Positions 302-27,640 of a stretch of DNA of 64,000 nucleotides are shown here, piece by piece (within the stretch, counting starts at the first letter, position 1; every line of letters starts with the position of its first letter). The notes beneath the pieces are model-generated. The model made no database searches. It was not told where the DNA came from and saw nothing but the letters and a program-made list of their open reading frames with translations. The position numbers and the translations under genes are program-made. The stretch spans positions 1-64,000 of the forward strand of contig JADNRX010000184.1 of NCBI GenBank assembly GCA_015501595.1, written 5' to 3'. The DNA is from Hymenopellis radicata. Its lineage: Eukaryota > Basidiomycota > Agaricomycetes > Agaricales > Physalacriaceae.

Positions 302-841
302 TTACTCCTCCTGTTCGCTTGCCCGCCTCCGCACTGCCCTGTCCATCCTCATCTTATCCATGCTCTTCCTTGCCTTGGCAAATCTTAAACGCTCCTCCAA
401 CTCTGCCGGACTGTAATCCTCGGGGCGCTGCAAATGCCCCAACCTGTGTACGACGTTTCCGTCTCGATCCGCTCTGAAGTCAATCGTCAAACATCATCAC
501 AAGAAAACTCTGAAAACCCATACAGGTTTCTCCTTCTCCGCTCCTTGGTCGCCAGCTTTGGACGATTGTTTTTTTTGTGTTTAGCCTGATAGCCGCGGTC
601 TGCCTCTCGCGCGGCCTCTTGGTCTTTAGCAGGGAGTTCCTTCAGTCGCGCTCGTTTCCTAAACCAGAATTCAATACTGCAAGCAGTGCATATGAGGCCA
701 ACCCACTTACCGCGCCATACACGCTGCCGATGCCGCCCGAGCTCGCTCTTTTTTGGCTTGAGCAATCTCTTCACAAGCCTTTTTGTCAGCGCCAGTCGAC
801 ACAGGTACTGGTCCCCGGGCTGTCTTCTTAGTCCGCGCCAT
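302..841 (-). CDS. Small basic protein with histone H3-tail-like N-terminus
   Basis: Three exons (841-711, 658-524, 473-302) join through GT-AG introns of 52 and 50 nt. They sum to 438 nt, giving 145 aa and a stop. The protein begins MARTKKTARG; processed histone H3 begins ARTKQTAR, so residues 2-9 differ at one position only. The rest is highly charged: a Lys/Arg/Ala-rich helix-like stretch at about 18-45, RKRARLKEL after the first junction, KERRRRN near residue 88, and a final helix rich in Glu, Arg and Lys. No catalytic domain is visible. The H3 tail is read by chromodomain, PHD and methyltransferase proteins, so chromatin mimicry is a reasonable inference but not shown. The gene points away from the TET/JBP-like gene at 1422, with about 580 bp between the two start codons. 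Function unknown. Confidence 0.6.
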
Positions 842-1421: not shown

Positions 1422-3310
1422 ATGAAATTTCTAGGTAAGCTCTTTTCTGCCTCCTCGCTGTCCTTCTTCCTTTCCCTTTCTCTGGGTCGTCGTCGTCAGT
1501 AGGCCCTTCGCACTTGGAGGGCCCAAAAGGACGCACGACCCGCGCTGGCCGTTGCTAACCCGTGTGGTGGGCTCCCAGATGCGTTGTTCTTTTTCGTTTC
1601 TTGCGTGTGGTTCTTTGCCCCCCCCCCCATGTTTCCCCTACCGGTGCTTATCCCCACCATACCAGAACGTCAAACGCGCTCCAAACGCGTCTTTTCTCCA
1701 TACGCCGCCTTCCTGCCGTCCCAGGTTATCAAGACCCACGCCGAGGTGGGCGCACTAGTCCTCAAGCGTCTCGCCGAACTCGAACAGCACCAAGACGCGC
1801 CCAATGACGACGTATATGCGTCAACGAAGGAGAGTCCGTCCCTTCCGCCACTTCCTCCGTCGTCGCCTGCGGCGCCCTTGTCTGCGTCCATTCCCTGCGT
1901 GCCGCCGGACGCGTCGGCCCTCCCTCCGTCTCCGCTCACTCCCGACTTACCCCCGGCCGAGACCTCCAACAAACAAAAGCGTAGCCGGCATTCGCGCAAG
2001 CGAAAACGCGAGAGCGAGATCATGCCCGGGAGCGCACGCACGGTGGCGGACGGTCCTGGTCCCGCTCCCCGTGGTGCGGCAGGTCGCAAACACGACCAGC
2101 GCGCTCGTCGCCGTGCCTCTGATCAGGCTCAGCGTGTTGAGGATAGCTCTCCCCTGTTGATGTCACGGCTCCGGCCTCCTAAAAAGAAGGCCCGCAAGCA
2201 TGCTTGGGAGGCTAGAGTTGAGGATACTCAATTTGAGCCCCCTCTTCGCGAATGGCAAGGGGAGCGCACCGAGTGGGATGCTGAGGAATGGCCGCTTGAA
2301 CGGTTAGAGGAACTGTTGGCCTTAGGACATACCGTCATTGAGTGGGAGGGAGAGTACGTACGCCCTGCTCAGTATACCCACCAGGCACTGACGCACCCTA
2401 TAGGCGTCCTCGTGTCATCCTCGACGCTACACGTCGAGTTATCGTCGTTCTCTGCGGCCATCCACACGATCCAGCTTGGGGTGCAAAGATGCGTCGCGCA
2501 GCTGAGATCATCCGGCGGTATAAGGCGCGCTGCAAGTTTGACGCTGCACACTCTTATCACCGCCGTGGGGAGTACGAAACGCTGGGCTGGGGTCTGTCCT
2601 TTGGCGGCGGCCGGGTGCAGCCTGGCTGGATCGATAATACAGCGTGTAACCAGCAGGCCATGGCTGAGCTTCTTCAAGAGGACATCTTTCAAGAAATGAT
2701 TGGTTTTGCAGACTGTGAGTACAGTTAACCCCTAAGTCCCTGTCCAACCCCCTCTACAGCTCAATTCGCCCAATACTTTCCCAGCATTCACGACGACTTC
2801 CAGGACACTCTTGAAAGAGTGGTCGCCGACGATCCCCGCCTTAGCTACCCTATCCCCGGCTGTGCTTGGGCGGCTGCCCATGTCAACTTTCCGCCGGGCA
2901 GTTGGACACGCGCTCATACGGACCATCTTAACCATGTTGGAGGGCTCTGTGGCGTGTGGGCGTTGGACGACTTTGATCCTGATAAGGGTGGCCACCTAAT
3001 TCTCTGGGATCTTCGCCTCATCATTCGCTTCCCCCCTGGGAACTTTATCCTCTTACCCTCCGCCTTGATCAAACATGGCAATATCTCTGTTTACAGCGGT
3101 GATAAACGCAGCGCGTTCGTCCTGTTTTCCGCTGCCGGTTTGTTTCGGTGGGTTCACAACGGCATGCAGTCAGACCGCGAGTTTAAAGAGTCACGGTCTA
3201 CGACCAAGGAGGATTTGCAGGCATGGATGGAGCATCGTGCCACTCAACCCGAGCGCCTCAAAGAAAGGTTTCCCCTATGGGATCAATTAAGGGAGAGCTG
3301 GGGTCAGTAA
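1422..3310 (+). CDS. TET/JBP-like Fe(II)/2-oxoglutarate dioxygenase
   Basis: Likely oxidises methylated bases in DNA, by analogy with the TET/JBP family. Four exons (1422-1434, 1666-2353, 2404-2714, 2760-3310) sum to 1563 nt, giving 520 aa. The first intron (231 nt) is long for this region, so the 13-nt first exon is the weakest part; an in-frame ATG at 1629 is the alternative start. The N-terminal half is low-complexity and basic, with two clusters resembling nuclear signals (RKRKRE and RPPKKKARK). The C-terminal double-stranded beta-helix has the metal-binding HxD at H390/D392, the distal H443 and the 2-oxoglutarate arginine R454. Around these are GGHLILWDL, FPPGNFILLPSA and GLFRWVHNG, which recur in Agaricomycete members of this family. 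In basidiomycetes such genes expand together with KDZ transposons, and two KDZ-type genes lie in this window. All key residues are present, so the enzyme may be active. Confidence 0.85.
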
Positions 3311-3510: not shown

Positions 3511-5184
3511 CTATACGCCGGTCGCTCTTGCAGGCACTTTTACACCACAAACCGGGGCTACAGACTTGGGCCAGGCCCTCCACTCTTCAGCGCCCTTCAA
3601 CATCTGCGCTGTACACTTGCCGTTCATGCGTACGCAACCCTCCCTGCCTCCAAAGTCTGATTATTTTCGCTACAAAACATTTCCTTGGTTGTGTTACAAT
3701 GCATTCACGTATGCGCCCCGCCATACCAGTCCTTCATGCCCGTTTTCTCCTCGTAGTAGCCTATAAGCTCGACGATCTGCTTACTGGTCAACTGTCGTTC
3801 GGCCAAGCGATGCTAACAGTCTAATGTAAACCGAAGTAGTGCGGAACAAAGGTAAGAAGAACTCACGTAAAGCAACCAAGACAAGGCTCTATGCCCAGCA
3901 GCGTAGTGTATCATCCTCCAATACTCCCGTATGAAATCCTTTGTTCCCTCGAAGGCGCTCCCGACGAACTTGGGTCTAAGTGATACCCGTCAGTTCACGA
4001 TGAAAGCTGAGCTCGATGTCTTACCTGTTTAAAAAGATCCACCTAGCCCAGAGGGCGTGAATCACCTTTTGCTCGTCTGTATAATCCTCACTGGTGAACA
4101 GCTCTTCCTCTTGTGCTACCACGTCCCATGCTAGTACCCCGAATTTCTGCATCGACAACGCCCCAAGCAGATCATACAATTTGGGACCCAGCGGACGACA
4201 GGAGTATTCCATGTCCTGCCCTCCATCGTAGGACTTGAAAGGCAAGTAGGGATATACCGCAGCGGGCCCCAGCAGGTTTTCAACAGGAGGTGGTGTGCAC
4301 GGTCTTCCTTTTATATCCGACCTGAGCTGAGGTTCGATAAGTGACATGGTGGGCGCCAATGAGGACTCACCGAGCGTCGTCTTCATCCAACTCCATCCAA
4401 GGTGGATCTTCAGCGCGTGCGGCAGAAGATTGGATCTCAGCAGGGGTCATCGGACTGCCACTACCTCGTCAGCGGTTATTAGACGACGAGTAAGGAGTAT
4501 AACACGCACCGTGGCGGCAGCGTTAAATCAAGCCTAAAAGTAGGTCGATCTTTCTGATCACAAGTGAGTCGGAGTAGTTAAAAAGAGGACGGAACAACTG
4601 CTCACAGGCGCATCGTAGAAATTGAAAACCTGACTACACTTTACTTCAAATTCAGCATGGTTCCACCTCAGATGGGCAAGCAACATATGCTGTGTCCGGA
4701 ATGGGACCAGACCTTGTTCCTTGCAAAGAGGACAATACCAACCTCCGGTCGTCGTCATGTAACATGCCTGGTTCCCCTGCTCTGTGCGATAAATGAACCT
4801 AGTCTCAACATCTGCCTCAAGGGATCCGGACGGCGAGTCGGTTTTCACGTCAGCCTTTCTACACGCCAGCAAGAATCCAGCACGGAGATTTCGAGGGAGA
4901 AACGGTAAATTCTGAACTGGACGAAGGTATTCCAGCAAAGATTGGAGTTCGGGGGGTGGAACCGGTCCACTGCTTATACAAACCACTTCATCAGCATGGT
5001 CAAGTTCAAGTTCGTCCTCCGAAGACACAGGTTGATCTTGGGCGGAATCGGACAACTCGCTCTCTTCAGAGGAAGACTCGGCTCCCTGTTCCTCGTCACC
5101 TACATCCACATTTTGTGCTGGCCTATTTACGTTCAGCCCTATACACGACGAGGAAGAGCTATGCTTACTTGGCCTCCCGCTCAT
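3511..5184 (-). CDS. Agaricomycete-specific protein with CPLC zinc-finger-like motif
   Basis: Start chosen at ATG 5184 (MSGRPSKHSS). An acidic serine-rich N-terminus leads to a block with GGWYCPLCKEQG followed by a His pair in LLAHLRWNHAE: a C-x2-C...H-x4-H pattern resembling a C2H2 finger. Later exons carry PPWMELDEDDAR, LLGPAAVYPY, QKFGVLAWDVV, ALWARWIFLNR, FIREYWRMIHYAAG and YYEEKTGMKDWYG, and end with AEEWRAWPKSVAPV and a stop at 3511. Introns are about 45-70 nt, and the longest gap lies near 4460-4600, where a second start is possible. I recognise no enzymatic domain. The last 50 coding bases are nearly repeated in the Ulp1-like gene at 5985-6034. The gene may belong to the same mobile or lineage-specific cassette as its neighbours. 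Confidence 0.55.
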
Positions 5185-5761
5185 GGATAGTGAATCCGAG
5201 ACCAAGAACAAAGCGCGGTCGCTCGACAGTCGACGACGACGACAAATTTGTCGCCTCCTCAAACGTCGAAGCACTAGCCACCATTGCTGGCCGTTGTGTC
5301 CTAGTCAGTAGCTCAAGGTCGTCCTCCTGTTGTTTCCACGCCGGGAGTGGGGGGAACATCGGCATCTTCCTTGCAGTGAACCCCCCCAACGGGTTCGGTA
5401 CTCTCTAAGGAACGGGTATTGTAGATTCTAGTGTAAGAATGTTGTTCATCACTTACGCTCACCGTTTTTCGAGTGAATCCGGACCATGCGGTGCGCAGGC
5501 CCAAATTGTGGGGTGACTCACTACTGTCCGTAGAGTCTGCATTTACTGGTCTTGTTTGTTGTCTTGGAGCAATTGGCCTCCCGCCGTACCGCCGATCCCC
5601 GTAGACCTGGCCGTCCTTCTCGTCTGTCTCCCTGTGTGCCATCCAGTAGAGCGGCGAGGTCTGCGGTGGTAGTCGATTCAAGGCAAGGCCAACTTCCACA
5701 TCAACACGTGGACACCGCCTCTTTGGGCTTTCGGCATTTGCCGCAAATTCCGCAGCTCTAA
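5165..5761 (-). CDS. Short hypothetical protein, spliced
   Basis: An exon near 5761-5710 contains CGICGKCRKPKEA, a possible C-x2-C-x2-C metal site. It can splice in phase to TSPLYWMAHRETDEKDG (to about 5464), and then across a GT-AG intron to an exon beginning RVPNPLGGFTARK and ending HEREAK at 5165. Its last 20 bases overlap the start of the next gene in another frame, so it could instead be upstream exons of that gene. Its 5' end is not resolved. No function can be assigned. Confidence 0.3.
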
Positions 5762-5895
5762 AGTGGTTGCGCGCGCTTCTGATACTTTGTATCAGGCAGA
5801 ACTTTTTGGAGACTTTTTAAGAAATACTGCCACCGTCTGGCAGCCTTGCGCCCGTTATCGCCACGTACGCCCTCAGGTCGCATTTGCACGGTCTT

Positions 5896-7530
5896 TTACA
5901 GAATGTACGTTACATCATGGTCCATACTGCTTCCTACGATTTCCACCTCGTCCTGTTCCTCCGACTTCGAACCGCGTGATACACACTTGCGCCAGGCCCT
6001 CCACTCTTCAGCGCACTTCAAAATCTCTGCTGTAAGTCGTCCGCGAAGCGCGTCAATTTCCTCCATCTGCCACTGCTTTCTGGCGTCGGTCGCCGTCTGA
6101 TCAGTCTTCGTCTCAATCAGTAATCCGTACCCTGTCATCGGGCGCGAACTGACCTTGCGGATGACCTGCCCATAATAATCCATATCGGAGAGGAACGTAC
6201 CCAAGAAATGGACCAGGTACACTCCACAGTCGAAGCTGTTCGTTTGCATGGGCATCTGCACAGGACCCTCTACCCGTCATGTTACACAGGCATGCATGCC
6301 ACTCACCAAAACCTTTCGTCCCCGAGCGTTTCTGCCTTGTTGCGCTTTCTGTTTATCGACCGCCTCCGCTCGTAGATATCTTGCAAGAATATCCACAACA
6401 TCATCATGGGTGAAGCCCAACGAATCCAAAGTCAAGATCATACACCTCATCTCCTCCTCTGCGCTTTCTTGTCTTAAAATAAATTGCGGGTCGCATATCA
6501 CCACCAGAAACCAATGCTGCCTACGGAATCATGTTGTCAAGCGCCCACCCTTTTGTAACTATCCATACCTCTCATGTACAGGAATTAGCAGATAGGCTTT
6601 CTTGAATATATCCACGTCGCGCGTCCACTTTCTCACTTCTGCGAAACCGCTGTGGGCAAACGTTAGCAGGACAGCGTCGTAGGTCAAGCAATTACTCGCC
6701 GTTCCCTCAACTTCGTAAAGAAGAAAGAGTTGAAAACGTAGACGACGTCACGGCGCGTCGACGGGAGTTTCATAGTCCACCAACTAATGATGGTGCGTCA
6801 ATGAAGGGAACAACGACTGCATCAGTGGCTCTTTAATTCACTTGATTCCAAAAGTCACCACACCATCACTCAGGTAGTTTTGCGGCACTAGGCGGGCAAG
6901 ATCACCCCTTGTAACACTTGCACCCCCACCGACCGTCCAAGGATAAACGAGCATACTAAGGAAACTGCATCAGTGATTCCTGTCTTTCATGAGACCTATA
7001 ACTTACACTTCGTTCCGTTTACTTGCGTCCGCGTCTGTCCCCGCCTCTAAGCTCGTGCCTCCCTCCGTGCTGCCGCCGAAAACTTCGTCGGCCTCGACCT
7101 CATTAACGCTCGCAGCGCCATTGCTGCTACTTGTCTCTGCGCGCGGTCCAAAGTTCCTATTAGTTCATCCACTCGCGTCAACCGCAAAGGCACGTACCTA
7201 CGTCGCCTCCTTGCCTTTTACGATGTTTCGCGCGGCGGGGCTTTGGTCGCAGCTTTAAGTAAGGCCCGGGAACATAAGCGAGGTCCGCTGTAAAAGCGTT
7301 GGTTCCTGCGTGGCGCCTGGTTTTACCATCCACTGCAGATCCGCGCATGAGTGGTGGTGATAGTAGTTTAGAACGCGGTGACCGATGTAACGCCCGGGGT
7401 CCCTCACGCATAACCGTCCTTTGTCATGGTCGAAACGCGTATAAAGCCAATGAGATGCGCGCAAATCTTGTCGCTTCAACGCGCAAAATACGGGGAGCAA
7501 AACCACAAAAACCTGATCGCAATCGCGCAC
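5896..7530 (-). CDS. Ulp1/SENP-type cysteine protease (SUMO protease-like)
   Basis: Ulp1 enzymes cut SUMO from proteins or mature its precursor. Successive minus-strand exons give VYPWTVGGGASVTRGDL and the YLSDGVVTFGIK strand-helix start of the domain, then DVVYVFNSFFFTKL, RKWTRDVDIFKKAYLLIPVHE, HWFLVVI, TLDSLGFTHDDV and finally MQTNSFDCGVYLVHFLG. These provide the His (HW), Asp (LDS), oxyanion Gln (MQ) and Cys (DCG) of the C48 catalytic set, in the right order. Introns are about 45-60 nt. An acidic segment (near 7110-6990) and a Lys/Arg-rich segment (KPRRAKHRKRQGG near 7200) precede the domain. The N-terminus, about 7260-7530, is uncertain. Ulp1 domains occur both in host genes and in several fungal and plant transposons. 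The setting among lineage-specific genes favours an accessory or mobile origin, but this is inference. Confidence 0.75.
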
Positions 7531-7632
7531 CCCCTTAAAACGGGAAAATAACCTCTTCGTCTACCCCAAGATCTTATTCCCTGTTCGTCACGGCTTGGTG
7601 TTCCGGCGGTATCCGACCTATCCCATCCTTCC

Positions 7633-8965
7633 ATGCAAGCCACCCAAGGCACGCGTATCACCAATGCACTGGATGCTCTCGAAAGCGAAGTCCAGATGCT
7701 TATAGATTCGGGCGACATCCTGCTCACACAAGGCAGCCAGCATCATCGTCAAGAGATATGTCGCGAAGCTCACACTCGTCTAAACGACATCCTTGCCAAG
7801 GTGCCCTGTGCCAGCTCCTCGCCCCATGACGACCGCTCTGTCCGCGAGCAAGCCACACCGTCGCCCTCCTCCCACCGCACTCCTCATGATGGAGATGCAC
7901 GACAGGTGTCCCCCGACGTCCCGCAACTCCCAGACCTATCGTCCGACCCGCGTTGGCTCGGTATCATGAAAGCCGTCTCTTCCAGTGGCCACATATCCGC
8001 AGACGAATTCGTAACGCTCACTTTGGTGCCTTCCATCAACAGGCATTCCACTCAAATGCTGGAGGACCAAGCTCTCATTCGCCTGCTTAGAGCATACGTA
8101 GACCAAGACGACAACTGGGTACGCCGCCATCACTGAAGCCGGGCATTCGCTACTCACTTCCATTGCGTCTACTAGGTGCGTGCCCTGAACAAGTTGAAAA
8201 ACCCATACCAGTCTTCCATCCTCGACATGTATTCGCACCCCAGCCCCGCGCAATATCGGGATCAGACGTATCGAGTAGGCTGCCACCATTGCCCGCTCAT
8301 TGTCGTCGGCTGACGATGCCCTTAGGAACTCTTGACCGCGCAACATCGAAACCGCATCCATGCCCTTTTTTACCACATAGCCTCTTTCACCAAACAGTGC
8401 GAGCTCCTAGAGGCCGTCGCAGATTGGCAGGCCGACACCGGAGGAGTGCGTACACGGGAACAGTACGCGTCGGAAGTATTTCCTCGCCGCTACAAACATA
8501 TCGTCGATCGTCTTGAGTATGGAGCCCCCCCGCCAGCCGAACAGGGAGCCTTGAGAAAAGAAATTACTGGCGTGAAAAGGGTCTTCAAAAAGCGATTTCT
8601 CATGTGTCTTGAGCGAGCTGACCTGTTGTATGACCTCCATGACTCTGTGAGCTCGCTCACTCTTTTGAATGCCTAGAAGACAATACTGACAAGATTCCCA
8701 GTTTGGAGCTACCGTACTGCTTGATCCCTTCTGGCATATGGAGTGGCTGGAGGAGGGCTCTTCCTTCACTAAGCAATTCCCCGATCTGCTACGTTACGCC
8801 TGCCTCCATGTACCAACGTCCCAGCACCTGCATGGTCATGCCGAGCGCGTCGTTCGCCACGTCGCGTCGATTCTAGGAGACACTGACAGTGTGGCCATTG
8901 TCGACGAGTGGTCCCAGAATCACCAGCCCAGTCGTCTCAGCGTCGAGGAAGATTGGTCGGAGTAA
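7633..8965 (+). CDS. Hypothetical Agaricomycete protein, 389 aa
   Basis: Four exons (7633-8118, 8176-8274, 8326-8646, 8702-8965) joined by introns of 51-57 nt give an uninterrupted 389-aa protein. It starts MQATQGTRITNALDALES. The order is a helical N-terminus, a Ser/Pro/His-rich linker at about residues 60-105, a helical middle (LRAYVDQDDNW, VRALNKLKNPY), and a C-terminal block with DPFWHMEWLEEGSSFTK and ILGDTDSVAIVDEWS. I do not recognise a named domain. About 100 bp separate its start from the Ulp1-like gene on the other strand, and the large unknown gene at 9298 follows in the same direction. The whole-codon exon sum argues that it is a real, intact gene. Confidence 0.6.
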
Positions 8966-9297
8966 CTTGTAATACTAGTCAATGAAATGGCGCCTTCAGG
9001 CGCCGCTACATATTGATCTATTCATCGATAAGTCTACGACGTGGTACAGGGCGCAACCCTGATACCGACCTCCAGCACAACTAGAGGGCACTTTGCAGAC
9101 GTCAAGAGGTGATGAACGCTAGTTATTAAGTAAAGTATTATGCTTTAGTGATGATCATTGTTTGTGTAGTCGCCGATCATCTCCTATTTTGGCATACAAC
9201 ACTGTCATCTCCTCCTCCCCCGTCGGCCGCCTGCGTCGGTTCGCTTTCAGCACGTCGCACAGGATTGCGTCCTGGGACGCTCAAATCTTTCACCAGT
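8966..9297. other. Intergenic stretch
   Basis: No coding signal was found. It should hold the terminator of the preceding gene and the promoter of the following one. The AT-rich part at 9120-9150 is the only compositional feature. Confidence 0.4.
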
Positions 9298-12200
9298 ATG
9301 GCCACCACTGCCTCTGTTCGCCGTTATAAACCGGGTCATTTTGTATGTAGTTATGTGCCAGCTTTGCCCTTCACGTAGTGCTAACCGCTGCCGTCAGGCG
9401 AGGCATAATTGCCAACAAACGATTCTACTCAACGGTCCGAGGGATGATCTTTTTATTGAGCCTTTTAAATTGGACGCCCGCAGTGTCGCCATCCGAGCCA
9501 AGGAGGTCGCGCGTGAGACAGAGAAGTTGAACGCCGATGATGCAGTGGATCAGGACATGTCAGTGCGTCGGCATCCGTCTTTTGTTTGGCTTGACTAAGG
9601 AGCGTCTGTACTAGATCTCCCGACCTTGTATTCTTGATATCGCAGCAAAAACACAGCTTCACGATTTTACACGGCGACACTCTGCAGAGGATCCCGGGAA
9701 GCCCTGTGTCTAAGACACGGACAACCACGCGCATGATAGAACCCGAGCTGCTGCTTGGATGTTACTGGTCGATAAATTCCATTCCTTACATGGGCTTTGT
9801 GCCCGTCAATCCGTATCGGGCGTGTTTTGGGGACTCGTTATTCTCTCCAGTCTTTTTGCGCAAGTGGGAACTTCCCTTGGAGCAGGCTGACAATCACTAC
9901 TGGAGGTTAGGACCAGACCTCGCTAGCCAATGGCAGAATTTAGAAAATGTCCTGGTCGCCCTCCGAGAGATCTTGGTCGCTTCCATACTCATTCGTGGCA
10001 GTCAGGAGCATTTGCCTGCTCCTCTTCCATCATATTATAGATTTGCTCGAGCGCATCCGGACTGCCTACTGGTCACGAAAAGGCTTGTCCGCGCGCGCTA
10101 TGCGTTTCTATTGCTCGGCGCAGAAATCTCCTTCCTCTATGCTCTCCAATGCGAAAACGCCGATTTCCAGGCCTCCTTTCCAGAACAACTGCAGCAGCAT
10201 TTCGGACATGCAGCTCTTGTTGAGAGCATTTTGGATTCTTGGTTATTTTGGCACGGAACGGGGTTCTTCTCTCATCGCTACTGTCAACTGCTTGACGAGG
10301 CAGCCGCCAAGCGGACTTGTCCGCGTCAGGGCATGTTCGTCAATGTCGCGCTCTCTACACTCGCTCACGCCTTAACCGCCTATGAAAAGTTTGACGTTCC
10401 CGTATGGTTCTGGTGGGGAAATCGGACTCTCACGCATACACCAAAATCTGCCGTTATTGCGCGCCGCTACGGGTTTAATAGAGATATGGTGGGGCGATAT
10501 CTCGACAGCGTCGGCGCTACATGGGTCGACTTAGAAACGGGCCGCATGTTTGAGCGCCTCGTGTATAAACCATCTTATGAACAACGTCCCTGCAGCAAAC
10601 CCATTCAACTAATCACTGCTGAGTCACTGTTTGCGGCCGCTCCCAATGAACAGTGGTTTGAATTTTTTCAGAGGCGGGAACGCGCCCTTTTGGCTTGGCC
10701 CGTCGACGGCGAGCAGCGGCAGCTGACCATAACGCGTCACCTGCGGGCGCAAACGCATGGTTTGGATCAGGGCTCCGCCCTGTTTGAATGGGTTCTGTTG
10801 CCCAACAGCGTTGATAGGTTTTGTCGGCGCCGAGTCCCTGCTCACCAAGCACGCCGTGTCTGGGCGGAGTACAAACCCTTCCAGCGTTATTATTGTGCGG
10901 CTTATGACGAATGGGATCTTTCGAGAGTACTCGCACCCGGTACTGATGCCTCGATCGCCCTCCAATGGCAAGAGAATAACATTCAACCTTTATGCGATGC
11001 AGCCGTCGATGAAGACCTGTCTACTTTGTTGCCATCAGAAGAAGTCGTTACTACCTCCCATTCGCCAGGTACTATAACGGCCGATACACAGGTGGCCACG
11101 GCTGCGGAACAAAGCTCCGAAAGTTCTGTACCTGAAGAAGACCTGCGATTTGCTCCGCCTGATGGTAGCGAGCTTCCGGACTTCCCGCTGGAAGATGGCG
11201 AGGTCTCTGATGCCGCCACTCCCATTGACTGGGCTACAACCTATCGCGCACTGTTTCCCATTACCAAGGAACGACTCGGAAGTAGACGTGTCGAAACCCC
11301 TTCATTCGCTACAGTTCTTCGGGTGTTCTACGGGATCTACGTACCGCCCGAGTTCGTGCGTGTACCGGAAGATCATCAGGGCAGCACGCTTTGGGAAGAA
11401 ACGTTAAAGAAATACCTGAAAACCTGCGTCCGCAGACTGTCCTGTTCCAGCCCCATTGTCGAAGAAGACGCTGCCTTCAATGCTTCAGCGTACCATCACC
11501 TAATTACATTGTTTGAGCATCTTCAATGGTATGCCACGGCGCAGAACGCCGCCACTCTGCCTGCGCATGGCCCTGCTATGGCTTGGTCCGATCTCATGCC
11601 ATCTCATGCGTCCTACGTATTATCCAATCTGAAGCATCGGTTGGTTATCCAGCGCATTGAATGGCGCATGCGCAAAGACATGAACTACCAGTTCTATTGG
11701 CCCAACACCCTGATCAGGGTGCTTCTTTATCGTGCTACCGATGTAATGTGGCTCCTACGCCTCATCAATGAAACATCAGTCGAAGCAGCACTGAGGCAGC
11801 TCGTCACTGTTGGTATTCGCTTCACTTTCGCCACCATAGCTCTTACGCCTCTGCTAGCGACGACGCTACTCTCCGAAGCAATTCCGTGGCGGCGTTTTCC
11901 TTTTAAGGCCACCACAGTCGATTATGAGGAATACCTCGCCCGCCGCGCTCGGTTGTTCTCTTCCACCACAGTCCTCCGCGCCGCACTACTGAGTGGGGGT
12001 ATTATCTGGCGCATTGCCATGGAACATTCTTCAGACCCAGCAAGTCTTCTCACGACGACCGCCGAAGAAATCCAACGCATAGGTTCGCGGGCGGGGCTTC
12101 CTAACGGCGACGTTGTCGCGCAGCTAAGCCTCACGGAAGAGCAACGACAGATCATCATCGGAACGTATCGCGTCAGCCCAACCCTGCCCGCTCCTAAGGA

Positions 12201-12447
12201 TTGCCCAACAGTCTCGTGGTTCCCATCGGCGACCTCTTTCTGGAAGAGCGGTATAAACGTTGGCTTCTGGAGTAACGATGCCGAGTCTTGGTATCAACTT
12301 CGTGTACACAACTACATCCACGGCCTCAAGCAACCTGTGGCCAAAGGGGCATGGACGACCACCATGAATCTACACCAGCCTGCGCAAAGAGTCGCGCGTG
12401 GCTACGAGAATCGGGCACGTAAAGTGCTGGACGCCGCTCTGAGCTGA
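9298..12447 (+). CDS. Large lineage-specific protein, 1003 aa
   Basis: Three exons (9298-9342, 9398-9562, 9646-12447) are in phase throughout and give 1003 aa. The start MATTASVRRYKPGHF was chosen because it links in frame through two GT-AG introns to the long third exon, which itself has no ATG near its 5' end. Aromatic-rich motifs include ELLLGCYWSINSIPYMGF, VPVWFWWGNRTLTHTP, WFPSATSFWKSGINVGFWS and SWYQLRVHNYIHGL. Between residues of about 450 and 540 lies an acidic Ser/Thr/Glu/Asp-rich linker dividing two folded halves. No transmembrane segment or known catalytic motif is evident. The final segment resembles proteins I associate with repeated Agaricomycete gene families, but I cannot name the family. 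It follows the 389-aa gene in the same direction and ends 270 bp from the RPA3-like host gene. Confidence 0.65.
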
Positions 12448-26353: not shown

Positions 26354-26683
26354 GGGACGAAAGGGATTTGCGCGTAAATTGGGGACGATATGCGCGTATT
26401 TTCAGCTCAAGAGTCGCGCACGTGATACACGTGACAAGCACACCTCGGCTTTCCGTCGGTTCACATCGGCCGATGAAGGATTTGAGGCAAAAGCACATTA
26501 TTGGGTGGTAGACGACTCTACTCTATCTCTATATATTCTTGGTTCCGGCGGGTGACGATGAAGCCTTGCCCGACGGGCAGACTGATGTGCGGCATGAGTC
26601 CTACAGCAGAGACTGACAGAGAAAGGACTTACTTCTGGTGGATCTTGATGGTACCACGCCGAACGTGGACCTGCGGTGATACT

Positions 26684-26831
26684 GAGCGCGCGACAAGCTC
26701 CGGGGATACTGAGCGCGCGATTACTTCCGGTGATACTGAGCGCGCGACGAGCTCCGGTGATACTGAGCGCGCGATTACTTCCGGTGATACTGAGCGCGCG
26801 ACGAGCTCCGGTGATACCGAGCGCGCGATAG
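26684..26831 (+). repeat. 27-bp tandem repeat, about six units
   Basis: Units of the form CGGTGATACTGAGCGCGCGA plus 7 bases alternate between a CGAGCTC-type and a TTACTTC-type ending. They stay in register as 9 codons, encoding SGDTERA followed by TS or IT on the plus strand. The alternation means the higher-order unit is 54 bp. Whether it is translated is unclear. Confidence 0.85.
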
Positions 26832-26899
26832 GCGGGTGGTTGGGTGGGGGTTCACTGCGTATGAGGAATTGATCACCGGGAACGACTTTGATAGGCTGA

Positions 26900-27640
26900 C
26901 GGGCCTTGCGCCAGTCGTATCCACGCTTGTATTGGAAGGAGGCTGTGGGCGATGCAAGGACAAAGCGAAGGTTGGGAAACCAGTACGGGTGAAAATAAGG
27001 CCATCGTCGCTGAGGAACAACAATGATACGAGCATGACCGGGATCTTCGCTATCCTACACGGAATGTTGGTAAACTGTTGACTATGGCAAAGGACCCGAA
27101 TTTACCCATCGTGGAGCGACATAGACAGTGATAGTCGTTCGAGCCATAGTGAGTGGATCAAGCACCGACTTGGACGGACTAACATCGGGCGAGGGAAGGT
27201 TGATGATTGGAAGGCGGAATCGGGCGCGTTGGGCCCAGTCTGCGAGGTGCTCCTCGGTGCACCAACGAAAGACACCCTGGCAGGCAGAAGGTATATTAAA
27301 GAGCTGGCGAGAACACTGGGAGACGGTTGAGAGTACGTTTGGAGGTTGCAGGTTGTTGAGAGACATACTTTTTGGTAAAATTTTCCCTTGTGCATCGCGT
27401 TGTGCAGCCCGGTACACTTGCGGGGGCAGTCCAAGGAGCAGAACACTTAATACATGCATCAGAGGCATTGAGTGCCGCCACCCAGGCCGAATACTCGACA
27501 GGCATGGGCACGAATGTAAACGCAAGAGGCAATGACGGGAGGAGAGGATTGGATGGGTGGTGCGTTTGTTTGGACGAGTTTGGATGCGCTCCGGGCGAAG
27601 GGTGGTCTCAAAATACTGCCAGTAACACACTTGAAGTTCG
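26900..27640 (-). CDS. Fragments of an unknown minus-strand gene
   Basis: Coding-like blocks on the minus strand include AFTFVPMPVEYSAWVAALN (about 27530-27470), LPPQVYRAAQRDAQGKI (27430-27385), then FNIPSACQGVFRWCTEEHLADWAQRARF and MARTTITVYVAPRW (27300-27105), separated by plausible short introns. A further exon may lie at 26900-27030. It could be the 5' part of the gene at 23530-26353 or a separate gene. No start codon is certain and no domain is recognised. Confidence 0.35.

Follow-up and report, generated by a model that had tools for sequence, protein, structure and literature searches.

A histone H3-like N-terminus on a small non-histone protein family of the mushroom Hymenopellis radicata

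Known mimics of the H3 N-terminus

In mammals, the PHD finger of UHRF1 binds the ARTK residues of histone H3 as well as the VRTK of PAF15 (cited sections of PMC8034647 and PMC11187062). DPPA3 engages the same finger through a VRT motif and helices, and mouse DPPA3 out-competes H3 for UHRF1 with a KD of 0.028 versus 1.6 uM, so that UHRF1 is inhibited (cited sections of PMC11187062). Both PAF15 and DPPA3 affect DNA methylation in mammals, as described in the same sections (PMC8034647, PMC11187062). In fungi, TET/JBP genes ride on DNA transposons, and according to the cited section of that study no other protein for additional modification steps is encoded by the TET-carrying transposons (Kojima 2025, PMC12730594).

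The locus described here lies in a window of 64,000 nucleotides at the start of contig C501, within the 75.5-Mb assembly of Hymenopellis radicata (bare positions refer to this window, and others are written as contig and position). A gene close to the contig end encodes a small protein starting with MARTKKTARG, whose closest counterparts in working would be mammalian PAF15 and DPPA3. PAF15 (PCLAF) is likewise small, basic and non-histone, with an extreme N-terminus that copies H3 residues 1-4, and it sets a precedent for DNA-methylation control. However, the H. radicata protein has long predicted helices, it carries no PIP box (no Q..[ILM]..[FY][FY]), the PCNA-binding motif, and there is no sequence relation between the two (two protein searches list H. 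radicata proteins only at E <= 1). DPPA3 (Stella) shares an ART/VRT-type motif adjoining helices and acts with DNA-methylation loss, but its motif is internal (residues 85-90) while that of H. radicata is N-terminal, and no sequence relation was found (DPPA3 as described in the cited sections of PMC11187062). A basic helical body tipped with a free ARTK would be compatible with the way in which PAF15 and DPPA3 work. The original prediction had instead drawn a parallel with pathogen effectors. In pathogen and viral H3-tail mimics, a non-histone protein does carry a short H3-like tail, but in H. radicata the ARTK is at the true N-terminus and belongs to a gene family resident in a saprotrophic mushroom, so that this parallel is not apt and the PAF15/DPPA3 type is nearer. 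No fungal or mushroom H3 mimic of this kind was found in the sections of open-licence PMC literature consulted, nor was any paper on DNA methylation in H. radicata found in that literature.

The gene, its start codon and the protein body

The gene extends over positions 302-841 of the minus strand. Exon 1 (711-841, 131 nt) opens with the ATG at 841-839 and encodes MARTKKTARGPVPVSTGADKKACEEIAQAKKERARAASAACMA plus two bases of the following codon; its codons 1-10 (812-841), placed by the gene model and by paralogue comparison, specify the H3-like MARTKKTARG. Intron 1 (659-710, 52 nt, GTAAGT..TTTAG) is followed by exon 2 (524-658, 135 nt), which aligns with exon 2 of the paralogues, then by intron 2 (474-523, 50 nt, GTATGG..TTCAG) and by exon 3 (302-473, 172 nt), with the stop codon at 304-302. 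The exon lengths add up to 438 nt (131+135+172), that is 145 amino acids and a stop. All 145 residues of the spliced product are identical to an annotated H. radicata protein, BDZ89DRAFT_1130719 (P0001), which is encoded on two contigs, C501 and C741. The coordinates and this identity confirm the three-exon model as first predicted. The start codon had also been called well supported, on the grounds that the exons close exactly in frame. The start itself stands, but the reason given for it does not: among the 40 longest models listed, the predicted one is the only one with GTRNG donors at both introns, and since the remaining 39 reach the same stop, in-frame closure is a weak argument. The start is better backed by the identical annotated protein, by an in-frame stop six codons upstream of the ATG, and by the context of the codon (A at -3, G at +4).

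The whole small gene, together with the 5' part of the neighboring oxygenase gene, lies in a segment (1-1963) that is duplicated with 99.9% identity at C741:8106-10068. A 75-bp stretch covering the end of intron 1 and the start of exon 2 (599-673) is identical at C577:10834-10908, an unrelated place apparently within another gene. A further segment with internal tandem repeats (26601-27292) is shared with C741:15003-15694 at 99.7%.

The 145-residue protein is not a histone. It has no Pfam match of any kind, and none of the 42 matches listed in a genome search with PF00125 falls at the small gene, which bears out the prediction on this point. Searches of Pfam, NCBIfam and PDB sequences returned no informative match to the small protein. 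In the predicted structure, residues 1-16 are unstructured and helices span residues 17-51, 54-89 and 111-144 (mean pLDDT 76.2, pTM 0.35, from a five-sequence alignment, the mutual arrangement of the helices being uncertain). Likeness to H3 beyond the tip (STG, LATK) was considered and rejected: the score of the whole protein is attained in 21 of 2000 shuffles, that of the protein without its first 10 residues in 75 of 2000, and the rest of the protein does not clearly resemble H3. The protein as a whole is basic, with a pI of 10.7 and 42 K+R versus 22 D+E. Such a composition speaks for a rival explanation, in which nuclear import, nucleic-acid contact or start-codon context keeps the N-terminus conserved and basic, and the likeness to H3 is incidental. 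We consider this explanation possible, though less likely than not.

The H3-like tip and its family

Residues 2-9 of the protein (ARTKKTAR) match the H3 start (ARTKQTAR) at seven of eight positions, the one difference being the Gln-to-Lys change at H3 position 5 that had been noted at the outset. By established rules, the initiator Met is expected to be cleaved at Met-Ala starts, and after this predicted loss the tip would coincide with H3 residues 1-4 (ARTK). The H3 likeness of the tip is real and goes beyond chance. A search of the 75.5-Mb assembly with a degenerate DNA pattern for MARTKxTAR gives 15 places, versus none for the reversed-pattern control. Six of these places are H3 genes that have a histone-fold match nearby (C461, C549, C663, C668, C1336 and C1377), three are H3-like first exons on contigs without a histone-fold match (C470, C840 and C913), and five belong to the small-protein family (C501, C741, C610, and C819 twice), while the one on C649 looks incidental. 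With 14 of the 15 places being H3-like exons or family members and none in the control, an incidental likeness in a basic N-terminus becomes harder to defend.

A wider pattern for MARTK-type starts (MASTK also allowed) gives 94 places versus 23 in its control; the 94 include H3 genes, the small-protein family and repeats, and the excess over the control is only partly accounted for. The H3-like first exon at C840:175249 (minus strand from locus position 1526, 14-residue start) is followed downstream by a cysteine-rich stretch with a weak match to Pfam CxC3, a KDZ-transposase-associated entry (E 0.33), on a contig with no histone-fold match. At C913:31862 there is a remnant of H3 exons 1-2, again on a contig with no such match.

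From position 77035 of C470 (locus 1501-2222), an open three-exon chimera of 206 amino acids carries a 25-residue H3 tail, on an H3-like exon layout, fused to a non-histone protein. Neither of two homologues, P0006 from Mucidula mucida and P0007 from H. radicata, has the tail, and for this reason the H3 exons look captured. Among the best 120 of 682 hits the exact chimera protein was not found, and all 120 carry a histone Pfam entry apart from P0006, P0007 and P0098. Capture of H3-tail exons therefore seems to happen in this genome, and the tip of the small protein might itself descend from a captured H3 first exon, kept by inertia and without mimicry. This origin is highly improbable: exon 1 of the small gene extends over 44 codons and shows nothing of the boundary with which exon 1 of H3 ends at codon 14, and only 18-21 of 26 nt are identical to the genome's H3 exon 1, with no excess over what the shared amino acids bring.

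The small-protein family occupies 10 genomic places, about 7 of them distinct. In protein-collection searches at E <= 1 its proteins come from H. radicata only (1 and 5 hits, the 5-hit search having scored the 7989 candidates with most shared words), and no relatives outside the species were found. The A type exists as two near-identical copies, on C501 and C741, both annotated and open throughout. The B type exists as three, on C485, C673 and C741:529, which start with MARTKQSIKAEG. The copy at C819:384 starts with MARTKKTARGD (annotated as P0005), and that on C1165 with MARSKETARGD (annotated as P0004), where Ser replaces Thr and the sixth residue is Glu. The copies at C819:34633 and C610:54 read MARTKKTARG and then lose the frame just past codon 10; at C819:34633 the out-of-frame stretch is open for about 33 codons and very basic. 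A distant member on C634 starts with MLRTR (MLRTRAQANVKKKKR), which is basic and lacks ARTK. A candidate place on C1369 was dropped, as it showed a short tail match only. In a five-row alignment that leaves out C634, members are 32-39% identical to the window protein, M1, A2, R3 and K5 are invariant, and exon layout and helical core agree. A MAR(T/S)K start is found in three of the five annotated family proteins and is absent in P0002 and P0003. The annotated P0002 model splices in directly after MARTK codons that the genomic copies contain, and the DNA of P0003 itself was not found in the assembly, where the best place reaches 76%.

Selection on the tip can be read from divergent copies. Between the A type and C819:384, all 7 changes in codons 2-10 are synonymous (pS 0.89, pN 0), versus a pS of 0.60 and a pN of 0.43 in codons 11-34. 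Residues 2-10 are identical at 9/9 positions, while 9/24 are alike in residues 11-34, where the alignment depends on one three-residue MAFFT gap. Such a tip would arise with a chance of 1.7e-4 if changes were neutral, and the enrichment in identity has a P of 0.0013. The B type retains ARTK when compared with A or with C819:384 (3 silent and no replacement changes), and all of its residues 6-10 differ from the motif that these two share; between C819:384 and C485, none of the five residues 6-10 are alike, versus 16/24 of residues 11-34. The comparisons support constraint on M-A-R-T-K; for the longer motif, they do so in the A and C819 lines only. As a check, it had been suggested to ask whether residues 2-10 are kept more than the rest. 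They are between A and C819:384 and, for ARTK, in the B type, but not for residues 6-10 of B, and homologues whose first ten residues are not conserved do exist (B at residues 6-10, and C634 with MLRTR), ARTK being kept in B. Because the B type keeps ARTK alone, C634 lacks it, and two of the five annotated members are modelled without it, the supported core of the H3 likeness is ARTK, H3 residues 1-4.

These data weigh on the explanation by a basic N-terminus from both sides. The C485 type retains just four residues of the likeness, and the start of C634 is basic without being ARTK, as that explanation would allow; but between A and C819:384 residues 2-10 are frozen and the next ones free, and a loose basic stretch needs no such freeze. 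Part of the family is judged from its sequence to be decaying, since C819:34633 and C610 lose their frame after codon 10. One could go further and see in all of it a decaying, repeat-borne family with no present function, in which the tip survives by recent duplication or gene conversion. The near-identical 1963-bp duplicate, the three near-identical B copies, the two out-of-frame copies and the differing annotated starts all speak for this view. We nevertheless hold it to be unlikely. Recent copying cannot account for the identical tip, since A has diverged from the other types almost to saturation at the tip's silent sites (pS 0.86-0.89 in codons 2-5 or 2-10), and the A copies on C501 and C741 are fully open and annotated.

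The oxygenase-like neighbor and a possible role

The small gene is divergent from an oxygenase-like gene on the plus strand (1629-3310), for which a three-exon model (1629-2353, 2404-2714, 2760-3310) gives 528 amino acids. The two start codons are 788 bp apart, with 842-1628 between them. The neighbor had been described as DNA-demethylase-like. It has no Pfam or PDB match and NCBIfam is uninformative; Pfam Tet_JBP misses it, and the three Tet_JBP matches in the genome, all below cut-off, lie elsewhere. The HxD..N motif and a distal H are invariant in four aligned paralogous cores, one paralogue matches 2OG-FeII_Oxy_3 below cut-off (E 0.029), and hhalign, with shallow input alignments of 4 and 3 sequences, connects the cores with the three sub-cut-off Tet_JBP-matching sequences at 95.4% (E 1.9e-8, 80 columns). 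By this profile comparison, the neighbor is a divergent, distant relative of the TET/JBP-type 2OG-Fe(II) oxygenases. The single-sequence fold prediction of its exon-3 core has a mean pLDDT of 38.5. A genome search with the core gave 63 matches, reduced to 56 places once 6 N-terminal pieces were removed and 2 matches merged; Pfam Tet_JBP matches none of these approximately 56 places in a genome search. Within the oxygenase gene, 78 bp (1912-1989) recur at 97% identity at C862:32937-33014. With its 56 places, H. radicata is an agaric with expanded TET/JBP-like genes, which recalls the transposon-borne TET/JBP genes of fungi (Kojima 2025, PMC12730594); however, no transposase was found by Pfam in the four ORFs scanned near the H. 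radicata locus (4558-12444), and no H3-like companion is named in the cited section of that study.

An oxygenase-like core is found within 4 kb of three of the ten family places (C501, C819:34633 and C634), and the A copy on C741 retains only the 5' part of the gene. At C501, the window begins at the contig end on the small-gene side. Under uniform spread, 3/8 such places would have a P of 1e-5, a figure to be read knowing that the distinct places are nearer 7, that C634 was chosen for its nearby oxygenase match, and that repeat-rich regions are not uniform. Proximity beyond chance is suggestive only.

We tentatively favor, at rather less than even confidence, a role as a decoy or docking protein that imitates the H3 N-terminus, with a link to this TET-like gene family. 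After translation, removal of Met would leave an unblocked A-R-T-K tip, the part of H3 that is gripped by PHD fingers and other H3-N-terminus pockets, and in the nucleus the helical body could hold a partner or DNA. The tip would then fill a reader of H3(1-4), in a manner similar to that of PAF15 and DPPA3 at the PHD finger of mammalian UHRF1. Since the family lies repeatedly near TET/JBP-like oxygenase genes, the small protein may help to undermine or divert silencing that is based on DNA methylation or linked to H3K4. The tip may thereby bait readers or writers of H3K4, as first proposed. The SRA domain, a hallmark of UHRF1-type proteins, has 7 matches on 5 contigs of the H. radicata genome (scored for SRA alone); SET1/COMPASS, other PHD fingers and LSD1-type pockets could equally receive an ARTK tip. 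Against the decoy stand the MLRTR start of C634, P0002 and P0003 without ARTK, the Lys at H3 position 5, the frame loss in C819:34633 and C610, the poorer conservation of residues 6-10 than of residues 11-34 between C819:384 and C485, the finding of relatives in H. radicata only, and the want of clear H3 likeness past the tip. As it stands, mimicry is plausible and partly supported by the comparison of sequences. A bolder proposal makes the gene pair an anti-silencing module, in which the mushroom's own PAF15/DPPA3-like decoy blocks the part of methylation maintenance that reads H3 while the TET-like oxygenase oxidizes methylcytosine; this we regard as improbable.

If the tip does bind H3 readers, H. 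radicata would offer a case of resident, non-pathogen mimicry of the histone N-terminus in fungi, with an origin independent of PAF15 and DPPA3. It would also open a direct way to study how expanded TET-like gene families of mushrooms escape or reshape silencing.
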